Assembly (NCBI GenBank): GCA_008330645.1
Contig: VLTN01000033.1
Span: forward strand, 351,008 to 415,007
Length of the DNA: 64,000 nt
Source of the DNA: Cafeteria roenbergensis
Lineage: Eukaryota; Sar; Bigyra; Bicosoecida; Cafeteriaceae
Direction: 5' to 3'
This document shows, one piece after another, positions 37,731 to 54,783 of this stretch (position 1 is the first letter of the stretch; each line of letters opens with the position of its first letter). The position numbers were made by a program, and so were the translations under genes. The notes beneath the pieces are model-generated. The model saw nothing but the letters and a program-made list of their open reading frames with translations, searched no databases and had not been told where the DNA came from.

Positions 37731-40700
37731 ATGGCAGACCGCCATGACCAGTGGTTGGCGCAGCAGCGTGAACTGAAGCGCCAAAAGCAGGCCTCAGCCG
37801 AAGCGGAAGAAGCTGCGCTGCTGGCTTCGATGGACGACGACGAGCGCGAGGAATACCTGGAGGCAAAGCGCCAGGAGGAGCTTCGCCAAGCCAAGAAAGA
37901 CAAGTCCCTGAAATCTGGGATGAAAGCGTTCAAGGCGTCAGGGAGCTCGAGCCGAGGGAGGGGTCGAGGCAGAGGGCGAGGTCGTGGTCGCGGCCGCGGA
38001 GGGGGGAGTGACTCCCGCAGGGGCTCCAGGTCGCCCGCTGCAAGCCCTTCGCTCTCAGCCCGCGACGCTGACGATCTCAGCGACTCGAGCGACGGCGAAT
38101 CTCCCACACAACTCGCCCCCGTGTCACAGAGGGTCCAGCCACCCGGCCCGCCCCCACCGATGGACTCCGCGCCAGTGGTGACTGGGAACAATGCTCCGCC
38201 CGGCCCGCCCCCAGCACCGGGAGCGGCGAAGCCTCCTCCGGCTGGCGCCTCACCCGCGCCGCCCGGTCCGCCAGGCCCGCCCCCAGCACCGGGAGCAGCG
38301 AAGCCTCCTCCGGCTGGCGCCTCACCCGCGCCGCCCGGTCCGCCAGGCCCGCCCCCAGCACCGGGAGCAGCGAAGCCTCCTCCGGCTGGCGCCTCACCCG
38401 CGCCGCCCGGTCCGCCAGGCCCGCCCCCAGCACCGGGAGCAGCGAAGCCTCCTCCGGCTGGCGCCTCACCCGCGCCGCCCGGTCCGCCCGGCCCGCCCCC
38501 AGCACCGGGAGCAGCGAAGCCTCCTCCGGCTGGCGCCTCACCCGCGCCGCCCGGTCCGCCAGGCCCGCCCCCAGCACCGGGAGCAGCGAAGCCTCCTCCG
38601 GCTGGCGCCTCACCCGCGCCGCCCGGCCCGCCCCCAGCACCGGGAGCAGCGAAGCCTCCGGCTGGCGCCTCACCCGCGCCGCCCGGCCCGCCCCCAGCAC
38701 CGGGAGCAGCGAAGCCTCCTCCGGCTGGCGCCTCACCCGGTCCGCCCGGCCCGCCCCCAGCACCGGGAGCAGCGAAGCCTCCTCCGGCTGGCGCCTCACC
38801 CGCGCCGCCCGGCCCGCCCCCAGCACCGGGAGCAGCGAAGCCTCCTCCGGCTGGCGCCTCACCCGCGCCGCCCGGCCCGCCCCAGCACCGGAGCAGCGAA
38901 GCCTCCTCCGGCTGGCGCCTCACCCGGTCCGCCCGGCCCGCCCCCAGCACCGGGAGCAGCGCAGCCTCCTCCGGCTGGCGCCTCACCCGCGCCGCCCGGC
39001 CCGCCCCCAGCACCGGGAGCAGCGAAGCCTCCTCCGGCTGGCGCCTCACCCGCGCCGCCCGGTCCGCCAGGCCCGCCCCCAGCACCGGGAGCAGCGAAGC
39101 CTCCTCCGGCTGGCGCCTCACCCGCGCCGCCCGGCCCGCCCCCAGCACCGGGAGCAGCGAAGCCTCCTCCGGCTGGCGCCTCACCCGCGCCGCCCGGCCC
39201 GCCCCCAGCACCGGGAGCAGCGAAGCCTCCTCCGGCTGGCGCCTCACCCGCGCCGCCCGGCGCGCCCCCAGCACCGGGAGCAGCGAAGCCTCCTCCGGCT
39301 GGCGCCTCACCCGCGCCGCCCGGCCCGCCCCCAGCACCGGGAGCAGCGCAGCCTCCTCCGGCTGGCGCCTCACCCGCGCCGCCCGGCCCGCCCCCAGCAC
39401 CGGGAGCAGCGAAGCCTCCTCCGGCTGGCGCCTCACCCGCGCCGCCCGGCGCGCCCCCAGCACCGGGAGCAGCGAAGCCTCCTCCGGCTGGCGCCTCACC
39501 CGCGCCGCCCGGCGCGCCCCCAGCACCGGGAGCAGCGAAGCCTCCTCCGGCTGGCGCCTCACCCGTGCCGCCCGGCCCGCCCCCAGCACCGGGAGCAGCG
39601 AAGCCTCCTCCGGCTGGCGCCTCACCCGCGCCGCCCGGCCCGCCCCCAGCACCGGGAGCAGCGAAGCCTCCTCCGGCTGGCGCCTCACCCGCGCCGCCCG
39701 GCGCGCCCCCAGCACCGGGAGCAGCGAAGCCTCCTCCGGCTGGCGCCTCACCCGCGCCGCCCGGCCCGCCCCCAGCACCGGGAGCAGCGCAGCCTCCTCC
39801 GGCTGGCGCCTCACCCGCGCCGCCCGGCCCGCCCCCAGCACCGGGAGCAGCGAAGCCTCCTCCGGCTGGCGCCTCACCCGCGCCGCCCGGCGCGCCCCCA
39901 GCACCGGGAGCAGCGAAGCCTCCTCCGGCTGGCGCCTCACCCGCGCCGCCCGGTCCGCCCGGCCCGCCCCCAGCACCGGGAGCAGCGAATCCAGCGGATG
40001 CGGATGCGGAGCCAGATGCCAAGGCCGCGCCTGCGGATGCGGATGCGGAGCCAGAGGCCAAGGCCGCGCCTGCGGAGCCAGAGGTCAAGGCCGTGCCTGC
40101 GGATGCGGATGCGGAGCCAGAGGCCAAGGCCGCGCCTGCGGATGCGGAGCCAGAGGCCAAGGCCGCGCCTGCGGATGCGGATGCGGAGCCAGAGGCCAAG
40201 GCCGCGCCTGCGGATGCGGATGCGGAGCCAGGGGCCAAGGCCGCGTCCGCGGATGCGGAGGCCAAGGCCGTGCCCGCGGATGCGGAGTCAGAGGCTAAGG
40301 CCGCGTCCGCGGATGCGGATTCAGAGGCCAAGGCCGTGCCCGCGGATGCGGAGCCAGAGGCCAAGGCCGCGCCTGCGGATGCGGAGTCAGAGGCCAAGGC
40401 CGCGCCTGCGGATGCGGATGCGGATGCGGATGCGGACGCGGATACGGAGGCCAAGGCTGTGCCCGCGGGTGCGGATTCAGAGGCCAAGGCCGCGCCCGCG
40501 GATGCGGATTCAGAGGCCAAGGCCGTGCCCGCGGATGCGGAGTCAGAGGCCAAGGCCGCGCCTGCGGAGCCAGAGGCCAAGGCCGCGCCTGCGGATGCGG
40601 AGTCAGAGGCCAAGGCCGCGCCCGCGGATGCGGAGTCAGAGGCCAAGGCCTCGCCTGCGGAGCCAGAGGCCAAGGCTTCGCCTGCGGAGCCAGAGGCCAA

Positions 40701-41397
40701 GGCCTCGCCTGCGGATGCGGAGTCAGAGGCCAAGGCCGCGCCCGCGGATGCGGAGGCCAAGACCGTGCCCGTGGATGCGGAGTCAGAGGCCAAGGCCTCG
40801 CCTGCGGAGCCAGAGGCCAAGGCATCGCCTGCGGATGCGGAGTCAGAGGCCAAGGCCGCGCCCGCGGATGCGGAGGCCAAGACCGTGCCCGTGGATGCGG
40901 AGTCAGAGGCCAAGGCCTCGCCTGCGGAGCCAGAGGCCAAGGCCGCGCCCGTGGATGCGGAGTCAGAGGCCAAGGCCTCGCCTGCGGAGCCAGAGGCCAA
41001 GGCCGCGCCCGCGGATGCGGAGTCAGAGGCCAAGGCCGCGCCTGCGGATGCAGAGTCAGAGGCCAAGGCCGTGCCCGTGGATACGCAGGTCAAGGTTCAT
41101 GCAGCTGGCCCAGAGGCTGTGCATGGCAACGGAGCTTCAAAGCCACCGGCTGGCCCGCCCGAGCACTGGGAGGCGCTCTTCCTCGAAGATGGGTGGCCGT
41201 ATTTCCACAACATCAAGACTGACGAGGTGTCCTGGCTGGCCCCCGAGGGCTTCACCTGCCCACCACCGGACGCTGAGCTGCCCCCTGGCTGGTCCGAGTT
41301 TCGGACTGAAGATGGCTTTAGATATTACTTCTACGAGCGCGAGCTGGAAGACGGATCGTTCGTCACGAAGACAACGTGGGGGCGCCCTTCTGTTTGA
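37731..41397 (+). CDS. Pro-rich tandem-repeat protein with two C-terminal WW domains (frame break in repeats)
   Basis: Starts at ATG 37731 (MADRHDQWLAQQRELK) and ends with TGA at 41395, about 1,222 residues once a two-base loss near 38880-38895 is allowed for. Order: a charged coiled N-terminus (MDDDEREEYLEAKRQEELRQAKK); an RG-repeat run (about residues 72-86); a Ser/Asp-rich linker; about 27 copies of a 21- or 24-residue unit with core APGAAKPPPAGASPAPPGPP; then about 360 residues of repeats around DAESEAKAAPA; and finally two WW domains, WEALFLEDGWPYFHN...VSWLAPE and PPGWSEFRTEDGFRYYFYE...TTWGRP. WW domains bind Pro-rich peptides, so the tail may bind its own repeat array in cis or between molecules (inference). 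At 38880 one repeat unit lacks one C and one G relative to its neighbours, which throws the frame; later repeats and the WW domains read in the new frame. Confidence 0.8.
38194..39990 (+). repeat. Coding minisatellite, about 27 units of 63 or 72 bases
   Basis: Near-identical head-to-tail units code APGAAKPPPAGASPAPPGPP(GPP)P. Variants include Q for K in GAAQ, GAPP for GPPP, SPG and SPV. The 72-base form (extra GPP) clusters at the start and recurs at the end. The high identity implies recent unequal exchange or conversion and makes the copy number in the assembly uncertain. Confidence 0.92.
39991..41090 (+). repeat. Second coding repeat, Ala/Glu/Lys/Asp type
   Basis: An irregular array of units built from GCGGATGCGGAG(C/T)CAGAGGCCAAGGCC, coding (DA)nE(P/S)EAKA(A/V/S)PA. 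Units are 21-45 bases with internal GATGCG expansion, for instance at 40415-40440. It is predicted to form a long charged helix between the Pro-rich array and the WW domains. Confidence 0.9.
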
Positions 41398-42150: not shown

Positions 42151-45100
42151 ATGAGCGCCACGGGCGAGCCGGCCGCTGAGGCCAGGCCCCAAGCACCGGG
42201 CGGAATGGTTGGAGCGCTCGCGGCGCTGGGGCAGCTGCTTTCTGACGCGGCCTTCAGCGGCGATACCGCGAAGGTGGACCACCTCCTTCGGGAAAAGAAG
42301 ATCCCGGTCAATTGCAAAGACAACGTGAGCTTCCCTGACCCTGCTTGCTGATTCTGCGCGCGCCTCCCGAGCCGGCCAGCTTTACACCGACGCGCTCGGC
42401 TGAGCCACCGCTCGCAATTTCCCGCAGGACGGATTCACTGCGCTGCATCGCTCCTGCGTGACAGGGAATGTGGACATGGTAAACTTTCTTCTCAACGCCG
42501 GGGCTATGGTTAACGAAAAGGACGCGTACGGCGACAGCCCCTTGCACTACGCATGCTTTTGCGGCCACAAAGCCGTGGTTGCGCTCCTAGTGGACCGTGG
42601 CGCCGACCCAATGCGAGTGTCAGCCGATGGCAAAACGCCCGTCCAGTCTGCAGAGGAGGAGGGGCACGCCGAGGTGGTCGAGCTGCTCAAGTCCAAGGGC
42701 GCCAAACTCGATGCTCCCAGCGGTGCGACGTCGGGCCCCGCGCCTGCCGCGCCCATGACTGGCCCGCCCAAAAGCGTGCCCACGAGGCGCCTGATCGCAG
42801 GGCTGGACTTCAGCGTCGGCGTGGTGCTTGAGGGGGAGCTTCGCAAGAAGCGAGCCAACAAGCTGCAAAAGTGGCGGCGCAAATTTTATGTCATGTCGGC
42901 CACATACGGAGCGCTCTTCTTTTGGACGGGGTCCTCGGACAAGGTGGAAGGCGTCATCAAGAAGGTTCGGTTCGAAACTTTCTTTGCGGTCCGTCACTTT
43001 CCTTCGAAGCAGGGGGGGAAGCGCTTCGACATCCAGGTGGTCACTGGCCGGACCATGCAGCTGCTTGCGGACTCCCCGGAGCTGGCGCTCAAGTGGGTCT
43101 CCACTCTGCGCGAGTACATCGGCAAGTCCATGGGCGCGCTGCGCATCCAGTCCGCATGGCGCGGGCATGTGGCCCGGCTGAAGCTTCGCCACGTGAAGGA
43201 CGAGCGCTCGCGCATCGTTGCCACGGCTGGGGCCGCCGCTGCTGCCGGCACGGCCAAGGAGGGCGCGTCCTCCACCAGCCACATCCTCATCGAAGGCGCC
43301 CTCAAGAAGAAGAACAGCAAGATCTCCGCGTCCCTCCTCTCCGCCTTTCGCACGCGCTACTTTGTCCTCGACGCTCGCGAAGGCGCCCTTCTCTACTACA
43401 AGTCCAAGGCCCTCCGAAACCTCGGCGAGCCCCCGGTTCGCGTCCCAATGGTTTCCTTCCTCGCCGTGGACCCGATCAAGGACCGAAAGGGGGGCTTCAC
43501 CCCGCGGTTTCACCTGCGCGTCACCGCCGGTCGTGTGTTCATCTTTGAGGCGCCGTCCTCGGAGGAGGCGGTGGCGTGGATGACCGCCCTGCAGCGGGCC
43601 ATGCCGCGCGACAACATTGCGGCTATTGTCGTCCAGCGCGTGTATCGCGGCCACCTGGTGCGGAAGCGCGCCAAGGTTGCAAAGTCCGAGGCGGCTGCCC
43701 GGACGGCCGCGCTTGCGGCTGCCTACTGCAAGCCAGAGGAGCGCTCCTTCGACGACGTGGTGGCAGCCGCTACCAAGATCCAGGCTGTGGTCCGAGGGTC
43801 GAGGGGCCGGAAGCACGCGCACGCGCTGGCGCTCGCGCAACGGCGGAAGGAGCAGGCGCGCGCGTCGCGGCTCTATCTCAAGTCTGGCAAGCACCGGTCG
43901 CCGGCCGGGAAGCCCGCTGAGCGGTCCAAGGCGCAGGAGTCGCGAATGCAGCGGCTGATGCGCCTTCGCGCAGCCAAGGAGGCCAAGCAAGCTGGTGCGG
44001 CAGCGGCAAAGGCGGCGGACGCGGGGAGCGCACCCCTCCCCCCTCCGCCAAGCGTGTGGGTGAAGCACACTGATCCTGACGCTGGCCGCGACTACTGGTT
44101 CAACTCCGAGACTGGCGTGACCACCTGGACAGACCCAGCTCTGCCGCGCTTCGGGCCGTGGGTCGAGATCACCGACGACGAGGGCGACACCTTTTACACC
44201 AACGAGACCACGGGCGAGAGCCAGTGGGACCCCCCTGAGGAGGTGCTGGCGGCCAAGGCCGCAGCAGCGTCCCGGGAAGGCGAAGCGGCGGCGGCCCCAG
44301 CCCCCGCCGCCCCGCCAAAGGGCCTTCCGCCGCCGTGGGTGGCGCAGAAGAACCCGGATGACGGCAGTGTCTTCTACGCCCACCAGGAGACCGGCCAGTC
44401 GCAGTGGGAGAAGCCGGACGGCTTCGACGAGCAGTTCCCCCCTGTCGGCAGCTACGCTCTCTGGACCCGCGTGGAGGACGACGACGGCGACGTTTTCTTC
44501 ACCAACAACCGCACGGGCGAGTCGCAGTGGGACGTGCCCGAGGACTACGTGGCGCCTGAGGCCTCGGCGTGGAGCAAGGAAGTGGACCCGGTCACGAACA
44601 AGCCGTACTGGTTCAACGCCACCACCGGCGAGAGCCGCTGGACAGACCCAGCGGCCTCGGAGGACGAGGCCGCCTCCGGAGCGGGGGGCGCGAGCAAGCC
44701 TACGCCGATGGCCTCGCCAGCCCTCGGCGCTGCTGCGGCAGGCGCCGTCCCCCCGCTGGCCGCTGCTGAGGCTGACGCGTCGGAGGTCATGACCTTCACC
44801 TCCTGGGTCAACAGCACAATCGCCGCCCACCCCGGGCAGCTCCTGGTCGACGGGGCGGAGGGCGCCGCCGCCGCTGCGGTCGGCTGGCTCGAGTCGCAGC
44901 TGCCCCTTGACCTCGCGGCTGAGTCGCCCGCCCTGTTCCAGGCAGCGCGGAACGGCGTTCTCATCGCCAAGCTTGCCAATGCCGTGGCGGCCATCCACGG
45001 CGGCGACGCGGCGGTGGACGAGCGCGCGCTCGAGACCTCGGCTGCTCCCAAGGACGAGGAGGAGGCCGCAGCGGCCGCTGCCGCCGCCGACGACCACGAG

Positions 45101-46762
45101 CTCTTCTTCTTCGCCAACGCGGCCACGGACCCCGCCCTGGAGAACGCCCAGCTCGCCCTGTCTGCCGCTCGCGCCTCGGGCGCAATGATCCCGTCCAGCG
45201 TGACCGCGAGGCAAATCACCCTCGGCCAGCCCGCAGCCGTGCTGGACGTGGTCTGGGGCTTGTGGAAGCGCAGCCTCACGGACACCGTGTCGGTCCGCGC
45301 CCGCCCCGAGGCCGTGTGTCTCATTGACGTGGGCAGCGGCGAGGAGCTCGCGGACCTCCTGCGCCTCAAGCCCGAGGAGCTGCTCCTCCGGTGGGTGAAC
45401 CACCAGCTTGACCTCGCGGACTCGTGGTCGTCCGAGGAGCGGTGCACTGCCTTCGGGCCGCAGCTGGCCGACTCCAACATGCTCTCCGCGGTGGTCCGCA
45501 GGCTCTGCAAGGAGGACGAGCACAGGGACCTGCTCCCGGCCGACGACGAGGCCCGCGCTGCGCTTGATGCCCACGACCTGGCGAGCAACACAATCTGGGT
45601 GGCATCCCGCCTTGGTGTTCCCGAGTGGTTCAGCGTGGAGGCCGTGACGAGCGGCAACGTCCGGCTGCAGCTGGCCTTCGTGGCAATGCTCTGGCAGCAG
45701 GTGGAGGCCTCCATGGGGCCAAGCACCACCCCGCAGCTCGAGCGCCGCCGCAGCAGCTCCGTTGCCGTTCGCCGTCGCACGATGGACACGCACAACCTGG
45801 CAGCCGTCAAGAACGAGCTGGCCACGATGATCAGGGACGAGCTGGGAGACGCAGACGCGGCCACCATCACCCGGGAGAACCGCGTCCAGCGGCAGTGGAT
45901 CAACTCCCTGGGGATTCCCGGAGTTGCCGTGCACGACCTGGCCTCCGACGTGCGCGACGGCGTGGTGCTCCTGCAGGTGGTGGACCGCATCGAGCCGGGG
46001 CTTGTCAACTGGAAGCGGGCCCACGCCAAGCCGCGCAACCGCTACCAGCACGTTGAGAACTGCAACATCCTTCTCCGCGTCTGCAAGGCCATGGAGATGT
46101 CCATCGTCAACCTCTCGGGCCCCGACATCGCAGCCGGCAACCCCAAGCTCGTCGCAGCCGTTGTCTGGCAGCTGATGCGCCACCACACCCTCCGCATCCT
46201 CTCCGCAGTTGCCTTCTCCGGCTTTGACGTCAGCGAGGCCCAGATTCTGGAGTGGGCCAGCCAGCGCCTGGAGCCCGAGCACCAGTTCAAGACCTTCGCG
46301 GACCCCTCGCTCGCCACGGGCATCTCCCTGCTGCACCTGATGCACAGCGTGCGGCCGATGGTAGACTGGTCGCTGGTGTCGGCTGGCGACACGGAGGAGG
46401 AGCGCCGCACCAACGCCCTGTACCTCCTCTCCGTCGCCCGCAAGATGGGCGCTGCTGTGTTCTGCACCTGGGAGGACATCGTGCAGGTCAAGCCCAAGAT
46501 GGTGATGACGCTGCTGGCGTCCGCCATTGTCGTTGACCAGAAGACGCAGGGCGGCGCAGAGCGCCTCGCCCGCGCGCAGTCGGAGGGCGCCGACGCCCTC
46601 GCCGATGCGCATCAGGACGACGACGACGAGCTCATCGCCGCAGCGGCCAAGGCTGCGGCAGTCACCGACTTTGCCGTTGACAGCGACGACGATGACGACG
46701 ACGAAGAGGAGGACGGGAGGGGCGCGGCGGCAGCCGCTGCGGCCTCGAGCGGGGCTGCGTGA
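42151..46762 (+). CDS. Ankyrin-PH-IQ-PH-IQ-WW(5)-fimbrin fusion protein
   Basis: Two exons, 42151-42324 and 42428-46762, with a 103-base phase-0 intron (GTGAGC...CCCGCAG), give 1,502 residues. Ankyrin repeats at about 20-155 (DGFTALHRSCVTGNVDMVNFLL, DSPLHYACFCGHKAVVALL). PH domain at about 183-292, IQ motif near 296-315 (ALRIQSAWRGHVARLKL), second PH at about 345-449, and IQ motifs near 455 and 506. Five WW domains follow at about 600-800, each ending W-x-D/x-P (TTWTDPA, SQWDPPE, SQWEKPD, SQWDVPE, SRWTDPA). The C-terminal 660 residues match the four calponin-homology domains of fimbrin/plastin, including LKPEELLLRWVNHQL, SGNVRLQLAFVAMLW, ENRVQRQWINSLG, AAVVWQLMRHHTL and VKPKMVMTLL. Fimbrin normally has EF-hands before its CH domains; here they are replaced by the ankyrin/PH/IQ/WW module. 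Actin bundling at membranes, with calmodulin and Pro-rich ligands, is inferred. It ends in an acidic run. Confidence 0.92.
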
Positions 46763-47241
46763 CACCCGAACAGGGTATGCGGAGGCGCGCTCCGTCCGCT
46801 CCGCGGCCGCGTTCTCGTTCGTGCCTGCTGCTCTGTGCTCGTGCGCACCCCCCCCCCCACGCTTGCTCAGGTGCGCCAAGAATCAAAATCCAACGTGCAA
46901 GACTTTGCGTGCGGCTGTGTTGCTTGTGATTGTGGCGCTCTGAAAGGCTCCGCCAAGTTGGCTCCTGGCCATGGCCACGAACAGCGACCCGCCTCTCTCC
47001 CGCCCACCAGCGCGTGCCCCGCATGAGAATGAGCTTGGAAACAGCCAGTTGACACGGTGCTGCTGAGTTTGACTGCAAGCGCTCGGAACCGCGCGACAGC
47101 CACGGGGCGCAACGAGTGTTGCGAGTGGAAATGGCAGCCCGTCCCGTGCCGACACCGTCTTTCCGCCGCAGGCTGCCAATGCTCACGCGCTGGACACGCA
47201 AAGGAGCACGGGACAACCAAGATCGAGGGAGGAATAGCCCT
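46763..47241. other. Convergent intergenic region, no gene seen
   Basis: 479 bases between the stop codons of the fimbrin fusion (+) and eL42 (-). GC is lower than in coding sequence (for example AGAATCAAAATCCAACGTGCAAGAC at about 46878-46902). A run of ten C ends near 46859. No RNA gene seen. Confidence 0.45.
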
Positions 47242-47886
47242 TCACTTCTTGGACTTGGCCTGGAACTCGATGTGCTTGGTGCGCTTGAGGGCGCGCAGAG
47301 ACTGAGCCTTGCACTTCTTGTCCGCGCACTCGAGGCGAAGCACGATCTTCTTCGTGGTCTTGGCCTTCTTGTGGAAGACGGGCTTGGTCTGGCCACCGTA
47401 GCCAGCCTGCTTCTCGTCGTACCGACGCTTGCCCTGGGCGAAGAGGGAGGCCTTGCCCTTGGCGGCCTGGGAGACCTTCACCTCAGTGTGCTTCTTGCAC
47501 TTCTTGCAGAAGGTACGCATGGTCTTGGGAAGGGAGACCTGCGCGGGGACGGAAACGCAGTCGGTCGGGAGGGAGCGGCGGGCGGAACGCGGTGGATGCG
47601 TGTTTCTGCCACCAGCTCTGCGGCGCCGCCGCGGAGGGGCGGGCCCAGGCCGCCTGGGGCCGCCTTGGGGTTGTCTTGGCCCACCGGACCACCAGACCCA
47701 AACCCTTAATCAGCCAGGGGCGTCGGCTCCGCCAGAACCGGCGTTCCGGGCCGCCAGGGAGGCCGCTGCCGAGCCTCGGATGCGCGCCAGCGCTCGCAAC
47801 CACGCCCCTGGGCCGCCTCCCCGCCCTTGCAGTCCGCTGGCTCGTGGCACGCGCCGGAATGCGGTCCGGAGAAGCCGCCTCACCAT
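47242..47886 (-). CDS. RPL36A: 60S ribosomal protein eL42 (L36a/L44)
   Basis: The main exon (47538-47242) codes [14 protein letters not shown]..., matching the universal VNVPKTRRTFCKKC start of eL42 without a Met. Immediately upstream is a CCGCGCAG acceptor (ends 47539). The only fitting start is ATG at 47886-47884, followed directly by a GTGAGG donor at 47883, so the first coding exon is just the start codon and the intron is 345 bases. The product is 99 residues. It keeps both Zn-ribbon Cys pairs (FCKKCKKH and LECADKKC), the [18 protein letters not shown] core and [13 protein letters not shown]. The C-terminus is shorter than in animals (106 residues). eL42 sits at the E site of the large subunit. 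The intron after the ATG is common in ribosomal-protein genes. It shares a 202-base upstream region with Yos1. Confidence 0.93.
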
Positions 47887-48890: not shown

Positions 48891-51800
48891 CTACTGCCTC
48901 GAGCCAGACATGGCGGAGCTGCGAGCGCTCGACCGCCCAGTGCGCCCACCCCTTCGCGAGCTCTCGTACGCGGCGGCGGCGGCGTCCTCCTCCTGCAGCT
49001 GGATCTCCTGCAGGAAGCTCGTGACGAGCTCCTCCACCGGCGGGACGCGCCGCAGCAGCGAGTGGTGCCGCCTGTGGTGCCCGCACACGTCGCACACTTC
49101 CTGGGCGAAGAGGCGCGGGATGAAGCCTGTGCACGCCTCCTGGCCATCCTGCCCGCTCCTTCCCGACACGGAGGTGTCTCCCGGCGCCGGCATGCCGCGA
49201 TCGGCCCTCTCCTCTGCATCCCTGTCCATCTCGCTGCCCGTCCTGCCGGACGGCTTGCCTCGCACCAGGTCGAGCATGGAGCGGCCGCTCTTGGCCGCAG
49301 GCGCCGCGCCAGGAGGCAGGGGCGGCGCCAGCACACACAGCGGCCGCGTCCGGTTCAGCTGGTGGATGCGCTGCTGCTCCAGGCGCGCGCGCTCCATCGC
49401 GAGCTTGTACCTGTCCTCCGCGTCGGCCTGCTCCAGCTGCTGCATCATCGCCGACCGCCGCTCGCGGGCCGCGTCGATGGCCTCCATTTCCTCCTGCTTC
49501 CAGTCGGGCCACGCCCGCGGGTTGTACGGCGCAGTGACCACGAAGGTGCACCTGTCCCCGCACGCCACAGAGATGGCTGGCCCCACGCCGAACTCGCGCA
49601 GCCCCTCTGCCCTGCCCGGAAGCGGCGTGTACGCAGGGTACCCTGCCGCGCTCAGCTGCGCGGGCCTGCCGAGACAGTTTCCGGCGGCAGAGCCCCAAGT
49701 CCACACCTCGCCCTCGGTGGAGAGCACAGCGCAGTGGAACGCCCCGGCAGAAACCTCCACGGCCACCACGTCGCGCTCCAGGAGGCTCTCCACCAGCCTC
49801 GGCTCCCAGGCAGTGGACGCATCCAGCAGCCCCAGCTGCCCCACCGTGCCAGTCCCGCATGCGTACACCCACCCGCCCTCGTGAAGCGGCGGCACCTGCA
49901 CCAGGAAGAGCGTGTGGTACGCGGCAGCGCTCACGTCCAGCACCACCTCCCCCGCCAGCGCCTTGACCAGGGTGGGCAGCGGGCGGTCCAGCGCGGACGG
50001 GAGGACGGGAGGCGCGCCGCCCGCCGCGCCCCCCCTCGTCATGGTGGCGGAGCGAGCCTCGGCCTCCTCCGCCTTGCGCGGCCGGCCAATCCCCAGGCGG
50101 CCCCCCGCGCCGCTGCCCCACGAGTACACGCCGTTGTCCGTGAGCGCCACTGTGTGCGCCGCCCCGCAGCTCACGCGCAGCACACGCCGCCTGTGGGCAA
50201 GCTTCCCTGCCGCCGCAGCGGCCGCGATGGAGAAGAAGGGGACGGGCACCGGCACCGTGACGTGCGCGGGCGTCAGCATGTCCGTGCCAGCGGCGGCGGC
50301 CCTGCCCTCGGGCGTGTGCGAGAGCCCTGACAAGTTGCCGCCGCCCCAGGGCGTGGCGCCCACCCTCCGCTGCATCGCGCTCCGGTGCAGCGGAGGGCCG
50401 TGGGCGCGCACCCCTCCCAGGCCGAGCCTTCCCATGGCCGAGGACCCTGCCACCAGCAGCTCCCCCTGGTCCGTCACCAGGGCGGAGTGCAGCGGCCCCA
50501 CCGACGCCGAGACGATCCTTCCGCCCGCCGGGAGCCCGAGGTGCTCTCGCGAGTCTACCAGCGTGGGGTACGCCTTGAACTCCCCGCTGGCCCCCATGCC
50601 ATGCTGCCCTGCCGGGTTTCCGCCCCACACGAAGACGTCACCGCCACTGGTGACGGCCAAGCCGTGGTTCTTGCTCACCCCCACCTGCAGCACGCACTCG
50701 CCCCGGAGGCCCCTCACCTCCGTCGGGGGCGCCCACTCGGAGTACCCCCGCATGTCCGCATCCACAGCCCGCTCGATGTCGCGGTAGTTCCGCTGACCGC
50801 CAAACTCCGCAGCGTTAAACTCCCAGTCAGCTGGGCCGCTCCACCCAGCCCCGCCGCGGCCGCTGCCGCCGCCGGTGCCGGGCGCAAACCTCACGCCCTT
50901 CCCGCCGCCACCGCCGCCAGCGGCAGCAGCATCGGCGCCAGAGGCCCCGCCAGCCGGCTTCGCAAGCACGCCGTCCAGTTTGGCCCGCGACAGGCCTCCA
51001 ACGGACATCTCCCACCACGGCTCCCTCGTCTTGGCGTCGTACTCCGCCCAGTGCGGGTCGTCGGGGTCCACCTCCAGCCCCTGCGGCAGCTGCCTCACCA
51101 GTGCAAAGCCCGCGCCGCTGCCTCCAGGCCCGAGCTTTGACTTGTCCGCGCCTGTCCCGCCACCGTCGCTGCCGTCTGCCGCGCCTGCCCCGCCCTCCGC
51201 TCCCGCCCCGGTCTGGGCCGGCCGGTGGCCCCCCTTGGCCATCTTGCGAAGCTCGTCGCGGGTGAACTCGCCTTCGTCCCCAACCGGCCCGAAGCGCCGC
51301 AACAGCAGGGAATGCTTCAGCGCCGTTCGGGGCGTCACAACCCTCGAAATTCCCTCTCCCTCGGGCTCTGCCAGAGGTTGCCCGCTCAGCGGAAGCAGCC
51401 GCACCTTGCCGCCTGCCGCCCCGCCGCGCGCCGCCGCCGTGCCCAGCGCGAACAGCCTCTCGCGCGTCCCCATCTTGGTCGGAACGAGCGCTCCGCCCCC
51501 TGCTCCGTAGCTGCCCCCGCCGACATCGTCCTCCATCGTTGGAGGTGCAGACTTGTCCGGCTGAATGATCCCCCGGCGGATGAGCTCCGACTCCACCGCC
51601 GCGTCGCGCGCCTTGCCCGGAAGCTCCTCCCACGCGTCGCGCCGCCCCGCGGCCTCGGCCCTGGCAGCCTCCCGCGTTGCCGCCTCCCCGAGGGCCGTGC
51701 GGACCTTCCTCTCCGCCGCACCACGCCGCGCGGCCCCGGCAGCGTCCCCGACCACCGCCCCCTCGCCCCGCTGCCGCCACCGCCTACGGTCCTTCTTCGT

Positions 51801-54783
51801 CAGCCAGGGAATGCTCACGTCCCTCGGCCCCGTGGGGCCCCCGGGAATGCCGCCGCCCGGCGCTTTGGCCAGCCTGGAGGCGCCCGACCCCTTGCGCGGC
51901 CCGCTTCCCCGCGTCGCTGCGCCGCTCGCTGGCGCTGTTTCGGCACTTGCGGCGCCAAGCGACCTCGACGACGCTCTGCCGTGGCCGATGCGAGGCAGCG
52001 ACACGGCGGTCTGAAGGCCGCTGCGGCTCCCGCCAGAACGGCTCCCGCCAACCCCCCGCCAGCCCCGCTGCCATCGTCGAGCCCGCTGTCCTCGTCGCCG
52101 CTCCCGCCCTCCCCGTAGCCGCCCCCGCCGGCGGCCAGGATCACCGCCCGGCTGCGAGACCCGGCGGCCGTGGCCCGCACCCCAGAGCGGTCGTTGGCCC
52201 CCGGCGGCTCGACCGCGCCCCGCGCCGCCAGCGCTTCGGCGTGTTCCTTGGGGTCCGTCCACCCCACCCGGTCCACGGCGCGGCGCCGCCGCCGCTCCTC
52301 GCGCCTGGCCTCTGCCCGTGCAGCAGCCTCCGGCCCCATGGCCTTCGCCACGCGTCCTGCCGCGGGGTTCCCGCTCTCGTCCAGCCCGCTGCTCTCACTG
52401 CTGTCCGCCTCGTCGTCTGCCCCGGCCCCTCCGCCGGCCGCGTCCTCGCCGTCCACGTCGGGGTCGCCAGCCTCCAGCGCCTTCACCTCCGCCCTCTCCC
52501 TCCGCCTTGCCCGGCGCCGCGCCTTGGCCGCCTGCCGCTTGCGCTCCCTCTGCCGCTCCCCCTTGGCCCTGGCGTTCTCCTGCATCTCCCCAAGGCGCTT
52601 CTTGGAGATGTCGAGTTGCGCCTTGGCGTCGAGGCCAGACAGGTCATCAAAGCCGCTCTGCGCAGCGGCTGCTGCCAGGTCCTCCTCCGCCTCCGGCCCG
52701 CCCCCGTACCTGCTCGCCACCAGCTTGGTCAGCGCGCCCAGCCCCATGCCCTCGGACGCCTCCGCTCGCTTCTTCTTCTCGGCCTCTCGCTCGGCACGCC
52801 TGTCCGCCTTGGTGGCCGCCTTGGCCGCCTCCAGCCCGGGGCCCTCCCGCGGGTCCACAACCCGCCGCACGGGCACTCGCCGCAGCGGGGCCTGCGCCCC
52901 GGCCGGGTAGTTGCCCTCCCCGGCCTTGCTCGCCACGCGCTCGAACATGGGCTGCAGCGGGAGCGCAGGCGCCGAGCCGCCCTCAGGCGGCTTCGTGGCC
53001 TCGTGGACCATCATCTTGCCCACGCTGTCGTCGTCGCTGCTGTCGAGCGGCTCCAGCCCCGCAGGCCCGGCCATGGACGGCCTCCGGCCCCGCTCCCTGT
53101 GCTCGGCAAAGGGCACGTGCCCGCCGGTGTGCCCGGCCCACTCCCCCCGCCGTGCGGCCGGGCTGCCGCGGCGGACGCGCGCCCGTGATCTCGCCCGCCG
53201 CCGGACACGCGTGTGCCCCCCGCCCCGGCCATGCTGCCGGGGAGCTCACCGGGCCCCGCCCCGCTGCGGAGGCCCCCCGCGGGTGCCTGAGCCCAGACAC
53301 CAAGCTGCGCGCCCCGCCGTCCTCGCCGTCGCTCCAGGCCCCCTCGCTCTCCGCCTCTGCCGTGGCCGACGCGGGCTCGGCATGTGCCCACCGCTGAGCG
53401 CCCGCGAACGACGACGACAGCGGTCCCTGGGGCAGGGGCTGCCTCGGCTGGAGCTCCTCCGGCACGGCCTCGTCGACGTCGGTGCGGAGGCTGAGCCCCA
53501 CGCCAAACTCCGACGGCCCCGGCTCACCGCCAGGGCCTGCGCCAGCGGGAGCGGGCTGGAAGGACACGCGCCCGGCTGCCGCGTCGTCCTCGTCGCTCTC
53601 GGACTCCCCTGGCAGAGCTGGCAGCCCCCCCACCGCCCCGCTTGCAGCCGCACCCTGCAGCCCTCGCCCGTGACCGCTCACGAAGAGCTCCTCCCTCCGG
53701 TTGCCCCTCGCACGGCGCGACTTGGAGTCGGGGTACCCCAGCGGGGCCTGCTGGTCAGGAGTGCATCCACCGAAGGACACGACGTCGCCACTCTCCGTGA
53801 GACAGGCGGCCACCCGGGCGTCGAAGGAGCAGGTCACCTGAACCACCCCCCGGCCGCAGAGGGCCTGCATCACGGAGGGGGACCCGCGGACGAAGAGCCG
53901 GTCCCAGCAGTGCTGCTCCGGCCCGTACCCCACCCCGAACGCAATGACCGTCCCCTTGGCCTCCCCGCGTCGCTCTCGCTGCAGCTTCTCGAGGGCTTCG
54001 GCTCGGGCGACGCGCTTCAAGTCCCGCCGCTGCTGCTGCAAGATGCGGTCAATCAGCTGGGCGCGCGTCCCAATCTGGTCCAGGTCGCGGGAGGCCAGCG
54101 CCACCCTGAGCTCCCGCAGGCTCCAAGCCATGAGCTCCTCCAGGGTCACGTTGAGCCAAAAGTCCTCCAGCTCCACCATGCGCTCCGCGTTGCGCTTCAT
54201 GACCGACATGGCGCGCGCCTCGCGCTTCTTCTGCGCGCCCACACACCGATCGCGCAGCGAGGCCGGGAGGAGAAGCGCGCGTTGCTGGGCCGTCCGAGGC
54301 GGCTGGCACACGACGCAACCCCCAAGTGCCAGGAGGAGCCCCCTCAGCGCCGGGCTACATCGCGCGCACCGCACGGGGATCACAGGCCACCCGCCGCGTC
54401 GACGCCTGCACGGCGTCCCGGCCCTGGGGAGGCGCGGCCGGGCTGCAGCCTCGCGATTCGCCGTCCCTCGGCACTCGCCCACCGCCCAACGCGCTGTCCC
54501 CGAGCCCCGCCCCCGTGGATGCCACGCCAGCGCGTACGCAGCGCGCCGCCCTGCCAGCTGTGCGCGCCGCTTCCAGCTGGGAGCCGTGGGGCGGAGCGCA
54601 GGCGCGGCAAGGCATCGCAGCGAAAAATGACCGGCAACTGGGAGTTGCAAAACTAACCTCCAACGTCCGGACCGCCTTGGACTTCCATTTCTGGATCTTC
54701 CGGACCAGGTCCAGGGTCAGGTCTGCCGAGGCAGCGCCCCTCCCGGAGCGCTGAGCCCGGTCGCGCCGCAGCGCAAGCGCCAT
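48891..54783 (-). CDS. SAP-domain plus RCC1-repeat protein (multi-exon, one or two unresolved joints)
   Basis: First exon 54783-54658 (MALALRRDRAQRSGRG...RTLE), donor GTTAGT. Second exon 54230-53250, acceptor GCGCGCAG, donor GTGAGC, phase 0 on both sides. The remaining coding runs from about 53140 or 53101 to TAG at 48891. Exon 2 has a SAP-like DNA/RNA-binding helix pair (SLRELRVALASRDLDQIGTR then AQLIDRIL), and a first RCC1-like block (VVQVTCSFDARVAACLTESG). After about 400 residues of charged, Arg/Glu/Ala-rich sequence come further RCC1 blades: VFVWGGNPAGQHGMG, VYSWGSGAGGRLGIG, VYACGTGTVGQLGLL, VWTWGSAAGNCLGRP. The C-terminus has a coiled helix and Cys/His residues. RCC1 propellers bind chromatin or act in GTPase regulation; the role here is unknown. 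The exon 2/3 acceptor is not resolved, and near 52040-52060 (a run of six G on the coding strand) the frame changes with no intron signal. Confidence 0.78.
52010..52080 (-). other. Frame break in the SAP-RCC1 gene at a G homopolymer
   Basis: Coding sequence from about 53100 down (ending ...DDGSGAGGGLAGA) reads in one frame. From about 52010 down (TAVSLPRIGHGRASSRS...) it reads in another, consistent with one missing base. The coding strand has GGGGGG at about 52052-52057. The only GT...AG pair in the gap would remove 33 bases and would not change frame, so a small intron does not explain it. Confidence 0.65.

Follow-up and report, generated by a model that had tools for sequence, protein, structure and literature searches.

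In Cafeteria roenbergensis, a gene predicted from the genome joins the four calponin-homology (CH) domains of a fimbrin to an N-terminal extension of ankyrin repeats, PH, IQ and WW domains. It lies at positions 42151-46762 (forward strand) of the window, a 64,000-nucleotide stretch of contig VLTN01000033.1 (positions 351,008 to 415,007). Fimbrins (plastins) are defined by an N-terminal headpiece with two EF-hands followed by four CH domains, and are described as uniform in this build (excerpts of PMC10533516). The window protein is fimbrin-derived, not fimbrin proper; it is filed as derived since no two-EF-hand headpiece was found in it. We propose, with a probability of about 0.5, that a fimbrin core was joined behind a scaffold cassette in place of the EF-hand headpiece, and that the product acts as a regulated tether between membrane, partner proteins and actin. 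No such fusion appeared among the titles and abstract openings listed in searches of the open-licence literature, and our claim of novelty concerns the architecture in the literature, not in sequence databases.

Domain order and the fimbrin-like core

The gene comprises two exons encoding 1502 amino acids, confirming the sequence-only reading, which had described one frame and one intron. Its features, all on the forward strand, are as follows.

42151-42324 (+): exon 1, 58 codons from the ATG at 42151; covers the opening half of the ankyrin stack
42325-42427 (+): intron, 103 nt, GTGAGC...CCGCAG
42428-46762 (+): exon 2, 1444 codons plus stop, the stop ending at 46762
42428-42715 (+): ankyrin repeats, second part (Pfam; end approximate)
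42821-43117 (+): PH1 (Pfam 6.2e-8); imperfect phosphoinositide motif RRKFY; resembles a PH-like region in the L033 protein described below
43136-43189 (+): IQ1, IQSAWRGHVAR (Pfam 25.8 bits)
43286-43603 (+): PH2 (Pfam 1.8e-12); K-x(n)-[KR]-x-R-hydrophobic motif (FRTRYF)
43619-43675 (+): IQ2, VQRVYRGHLVR (Pfam 28.1 bits)
43763-43819 (+): IQ3, IQAVVRGSRGR (Pfam, under cut-off)
44048-44137 (+): WW1 (Pfam)
44153-44236 (+): WW2 (Pfam)
44324-44416 (+): WW3 (Pfam)
44462-44539 (+): WW4 (Pfam)
44567-44650 (+): WW5 (Pfam)
44870-45265 (+, Pfam extent): CH1, diverged, with two insertions; by fimbrin alignment the first helix may begin near 44786
45368-45697 (+): CH2, diverged
45698-45874 (+): CH2-CH3 linker, 59 amino acids; RRRSSS at 45743
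45890-46186 (+): CH3, conserved
46232-46522 (+): CH4, conserved
46616-46723 (+): acidic C-terminal tail

A Pfam profile scan of the exon 2 product, considering matches up to E 1, matched 17 families and returned ankyrin repeats, PH, IQ, PH, IQ, five WW and four CH domains in the order given by the sequence-only reading. The WW family matched over five stretches (2.5e-38) and the CH family over four (1.4e-42). All four CH domains claimed earlier were thus recovered as stretches, with the reservation that CH1 (23.5 bits) and CH2 (23.2 bits) scored singly just under the Pfam cut-off of 26, against 72.5 bits for CH3 and 49.3 bits for CH4. The scan also placed a third IQ motif that had been overlooked; it scored 17.6 bits (cut-off 20.3), yet carries the full IQxxxRGxxxR. 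This motif thus occurs three times in the protein, once with V in place of I and once under the cut-off. A basic first-loop motif is common in phosphoinositide-binding PH domains. PH2 carries its full form (K-x(n)-[KR]-x-R-hyd-hyd) and PH1 a relaxed form only; the pattern also matched once outside any PH domain, at residue 310. Likeness among the WW domains is nested, the closest pairs being WW1/WW5 (15/30 identical) and WW2/WW4 (16/29), with WW3 central.

The splice junction falls inside an ankyrin repeat whose register is restored in the spliced product, where an Ank_2 match spans the junction (Pfam on the spliced N-terminus, residues 30-120, E 1.1e-23). The exon 2 frame runs for 1444 codons without a stop, against 21 and 22 stops in the other two frames of the forward strand. 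At 72% guanine plus cytosine (GC), however, one frame on the opposite strand is open too (1380/1445 codons), so an open frame alone is weak evidence. When the gene was codon-shuffled 200 times, this opposite-strand frame had a median length of 838 amino acids and reached 1392 at most. The case for the gene therefore rests on its domain matches, which far exceed chance. Antisense to the gene lies a 1420-amino-acid open frame (42620-46882, reverse strand), mostly accounted for by codon usage at high GC.

Compared with solved structures, the CH part matched fimbrins best: the Arabidopsis fimbrin 1pxy (239 bits, 1e-69), the Schizosaccharomyces pombe fimbrin 1rt8 (213.8 bits, 4.3e-62) and plastin-3 (191 bits, 3.5e-55). 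The best non-fimbrin match was the alpha-actinin-like 5bvr at 53.8 bits, which places the CH part nearer to fimbrins than to alpha-actinin, dystrophin or filamin (239 vs 53.8 bits). Like T-plastin, 1pxy, 1rt8 and the ordinary fimbrin of the same genome on contig C23 (hereafter C23 fimbrin), the protein arranges its four CH domains within a single chain as two tandem actin-binding domains (ABD1 and ABD2); 171 of 568 aligned columns (30%) are identical to C23 fimbrin. It differs from these proteins in its ankyrin-PH-IQ-WW extension of ~800 residues, its acidic tail, a diverged ABD1, a CH2-CH3 linker of 59 rather than 24-30 amino acids, and the lack of an EF-hand match. No EF-hand family was found in it at E up to 1 by Pfam scan, and none of 126 EF-hand matches in the genome lay on contig C33 (150 of 243 candidates scored). 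The Pfam and EF-hand searches thus bear out the proposal that a single frame joins an ankyrin-PH-IQ-PH-IQ-WW extension to a fimbrin core and lacks EF-hands. IQGAP likewise brings CH, WW and IQ together in an actin scaffold but has one CH and a GAP-related domain, and no GAP-related family was among the 17 Pfam families of the window protein.

Fimbrin and cassette relatives elsewhere in the genome

In the genome searched (G000; 36,303,456 bases, 167 contigs), four open frames together held eight CH matches (E up to 0.001). One of these frames, C23 fimbrin (G000:C23:68993-70450, reverse strand), has four CH stretches scoring 219.9 bits together and matches 1pxy at 5e-120. The EF-hand search that drew a blank on C33 placed a match (C23:71039-71212, 52.8 bits, 1.7e-12) on the strand of this fimbrin, ~590 bases upstream of where its CH matches begin, and the EF-hand and CH exons can be joined in frame by six candidate GT-AG splices. 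One such predicted splice (GTGAGG...GCGCAG) yields an EF-hand pair, a helix and HTYSEDEKVAF. The second part of this predicted headpiece resembles the plastin headpiece (by eye, plastin-3 alignment), and we take its EF part to be plastin-like as well. Because an EF-hand match adjoins the C23 CH frame and the join is plastin-like, the genome very likely also encodes a standard EF-EF-CH4 fimbrin, with a predicted splice. A loop-pattern search upstream of C23 fimbrin had found no EF-hands; the idea of an ordinary fimbrin without them was dropped when Pfam found the pair. The two further CH loci have one CH match each above cut-off (stretches of 1968 and 1914 amino acids). Also upstream of C23 fimbrin, on the same strand, is a 983-amino-acid frame with a PH match of 35.9 bits (L038:80-3028, reverse strand; G000:C23:72079-75027).

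A counterpart of the N-terminal half occurs on its own at L033:2472-5585 (G000:C23:201971-205084), ~131 kb from C23 fimbrin. It encodes ankyrins, a PH-like region, an IQ and a WW in that order, and its frame stops after the WW domain. The L033 protein shares the N-terminal module order of the window protein, with similar ankyrins (40/95 identical) and a similar PH-containing stretch (50/153), but differs in having one PH-like region, one IQ, one WW and no CH domain. Since an ordinary fimbrin and a CH-less cassette both occur in this genome, we read the window gene as a headpiece-swapped fimbrin paralogue. As 80 of the 295 candidates in the cassette search were scored, it may have missed another full-length relative.

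Matches listed across the 36 Mb of the genome included 74 to WW (E up to 0.001), many of them inside long open frames, and 50 to PH. Counted by eye, a PH and a WW match lie no more than 5 kb apart on one strand in five cases (the window gene, C63, C21, C24 and C19), so the mixing of the two is not unique to the window gene; they share one open frame at the window gene, C63 and C21.

Divergence of the two actin-binding domains

To judge from sequence comparison, ABD2 of the window protein matches ordinary fimbrin in its degree of conservation, and ABD1 has diverged fast. Identities of the window protein to Arabidopsis/S. pombe fimbrin were 31/27% for CH1, 26/27% for CH2, 45/41% for CH3 and 44/37% for CH4; those of C23 fimbrin were 42/40%, 43/40%, 34/35% and 55/41%, respectively. 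The ABD1 structure 1aoa scored 203 bits for C23 fimbrin vs 60-67 for the window protein, and the ABD2 structure 3byh 173 vs 187 bits. In a four-sequence maximum-likelihood tree (window, C23, Arabidopsis and S. pombe), ABD1/ABD2 branch lengths were 1.68/0.66 for the window copy and 0.59/0.78 for C23. Across 100 column resamples on the fixed tree, the median ABD1/ABD2 ratio was 2.57 for the window copy (95% 1.79-4.10), compared with 0.77 for C23 (0.42-1.25), 1.04 for Arabidopsis (0.61-1.85) and 0.90 for S. pombe (0.53-1.40), and the window ratio relative to its C23 paralogue exceeded 1 in 100/100 resamples.

The place aligned with T-plastin F191, four residues before the EN at the start of the next helix in CH1, is W in C23 and Arabidopsis, F in S. 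pombe and D in the window protein. Plastin-3 also has F at this aromatic place of actin-binding site 1 (ABS1), as read from the alignment. The linker between CH2 and CH3, which belongs to the hinge in a T-plastin-type mechanism, has 59 amino acids vs 30, 24 and 24 in the three fimbrins, and carries RRRSSS and RRRT, which resemble basophilic kinase sites.

In T-plastin, ABD2 binds F-actin first, and CH4 keeps ABD1 shut until its release to a second filament (excerpts of PMC9478642). Work of another group cited there reported nanomolar affinity for isolated ABD2 and micromolar affinity for ABD1, and put ABD1 first. In the same excerpts, the F191A mutation in CH1 reduced bundling; the bound fraction was not lowered and single filaments were still bound. 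From this mechanism, the D at the F191 place and the lengthened linker, we infer a firm ABD2 and a weak or conditional ABD1. That actin bundling is the regulated activity, as put forward by the sequence-only reading, is doubtful: bundling needs ABD1, and this half of the core is strongly diverged in the window protein.

Proposed working, alternatives and neighbouring genes

We hypothesize that the gene arose when a duplicate of fimbrin's four CH domains was fused behind an ankyrin-PH-IQ-WW cassette, which displaced the EF-hand headpiece. PH2, and perhaps PH1, would hold the protein at a phosphoinositide-bearing membrane, while the WW array and ankyrins would collect partners. Calmodulin on the IQ motifs may supply the calcium control that falls to built-in EF-hands in ordinary fimbrin; calcium control would move in this way because no EF-hand was found and all three IQ motifs are intact or close to it. 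ABD2 (CH3-CH4) would grip one actin filament, with the diverged ABD1 providing a weak or conditional second grip at most. The main role would then be that of a regulated tether of membrane, partners and actin, with bundling in some states only. A natural head-swapped copy with a relaxed grip would separate the roles of ABD1, ABD2 and headpiece without designed mutants, and ordinary and altered forms in one genome would allow direct comparison. It could also show how a bacteria-eating flagellate links actin to membrane. Distinctly more tentative is the fuller version, in which an old duplication split fimbrin into a calcium-sensing bundler, with its EF-hands and both grips retained, and a head-swapped membrane-actin tether with ABD2 as its sole firm grip. 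On this version, fimbrin regulation would be a replaceable part, and ABD1 would be dispensable once a scaffold gives a second anchor.

Several observations weigh against the proposal. Many PH domains bind no lipid. The PH-like region, IQ (14.0 bits) and WW (18.2 bits) of the L033 cassette are all below Pfam cut-offs. Reading the locus as a single gene rests on the open frame and on the ~46 codons from WW5 to the probable CH1 start. The rate test draws on four sequences only; in addition, CH3 is the less conserved domain of C23 fimbrin, although its ABD2 branch is only slightly longer than that of the window copy. A sister grouping of the window and C23 copies received 77% bootstrap (both domains together), and neither alternative topology was rejected (AU test, p 0.17 and 0.11). 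A CH1 insertion adjoins the F191 place, with FFF ~ten residues earlier, so the missing ABS1 aromatic may be an alignment artefact. An AlphaFold model of ABD1 made without an alignment had a mean predicted local distance difference test (pLDDT) of 46.6.

The likeliest alternative, which bears on the novelty of the gene and is compatible with the proposed tether, is a widespread stramenopile fimbrin paralogue of the same architecture, present in databases yet undescribed; we regard it as a serious possibility at somewhat less than even odds. CH3 identity is 34% between the window and C23 copies, 45% between window and Arabidopsis and 34% between C23 and Arabidopsis. In ABD2, therefore, neither Cafeteria copy is nearer to the other than it is to plant fimbrin; the duplication looks old, and a recent one was dropped on these CH3 figures. 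Also in favour, tails of heterokont myosin XXXI combine IQ, PH and ankyrins; myosins XXXI and XXI likewise pair an actin-binding part with IQ, PH and ankyrin or with IQ and WW; they differ in being motors, not CH proteins, with PH between ankyrins (excerpts of PMC3942036). Against a widespread paralogue, no relative was found in viral and prokaryote contig collections (1, 50 and 172 pattern stretches), which says little, these collections being silent on other protists. Among solved structures, ankyrin repeats dominated the best 60 of 434 matches to the N-terminal half, a result uninformative on the PH domains.

A full actin bundler, with both actin-binding domains working and switched by lipid, calmodulin and Pro-ligands, appears unlikely. 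In its favour, no CH domain is missing or out of order, and R594, the arginine through which CH4 of T-plastin contacts CH1, has an R as its aligned counterpart in the window protein; yet ABD1 is 26-31% identical to Arabidopsis/S. pombe fimbrin vs 40-43% for C23 fimbrin, faster evolution is confined to ABD1, and the ABS1 aromatic is not at its usual place.

That two adjoining genes (ankyrin-PH-IQ-WW and fimbrin) were merged through faulty assembly, loss of a stop in this strain or a reading made without transcript support is improbable: a similar cassette does stand alone at L033 with its frame ending after WW, open frames arise easily in DNA so rich in GC, and an ATG lies at 44789, just ahead of the probable CH1 start, but the 1444 codons are free of stops, the WW5-CH1 gap of 219 bases by Pfam (~136 to the probable first helix) leaves little room for a gene end, promoter and leader, and the CH core would also need to have lost its EF-hand exon.

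The neighbouring upstream gene (37731-41397), with a 63-base coding repeat (27 copies) and a 33-base coding repeat (34 copies), had been suggested to encode a Pro-rich ligand of the WW domains. Three features weaken this suggestion. Its Pro-rich reading leaves the frame of the start at ~38868 and reappears in another by 38929, which may reflect an intron, a broken allele or misassembly within the repeat. Motif counts found no PPxY, PPLP, PPPPP or PPxR in either Pro-rich frame. The protein itself also bears a C-terminal WW-like match (26.2 bits, below cut-off). PPPAP (10 and 12 copies in the two frames) and PPGP (17 and 14) may serve as WW ligands; on the three features above, the gene is a poor ligand candidate. 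Two further open frames lie on the reverse strand. That at 47242-47709 presumably encodes ribosomal protein eL42 (L36a/L44), and that at 48891-52394 contains repeats such as VYSWGSGAGGRLGIG (by eye), which we take to be RCC1-like.

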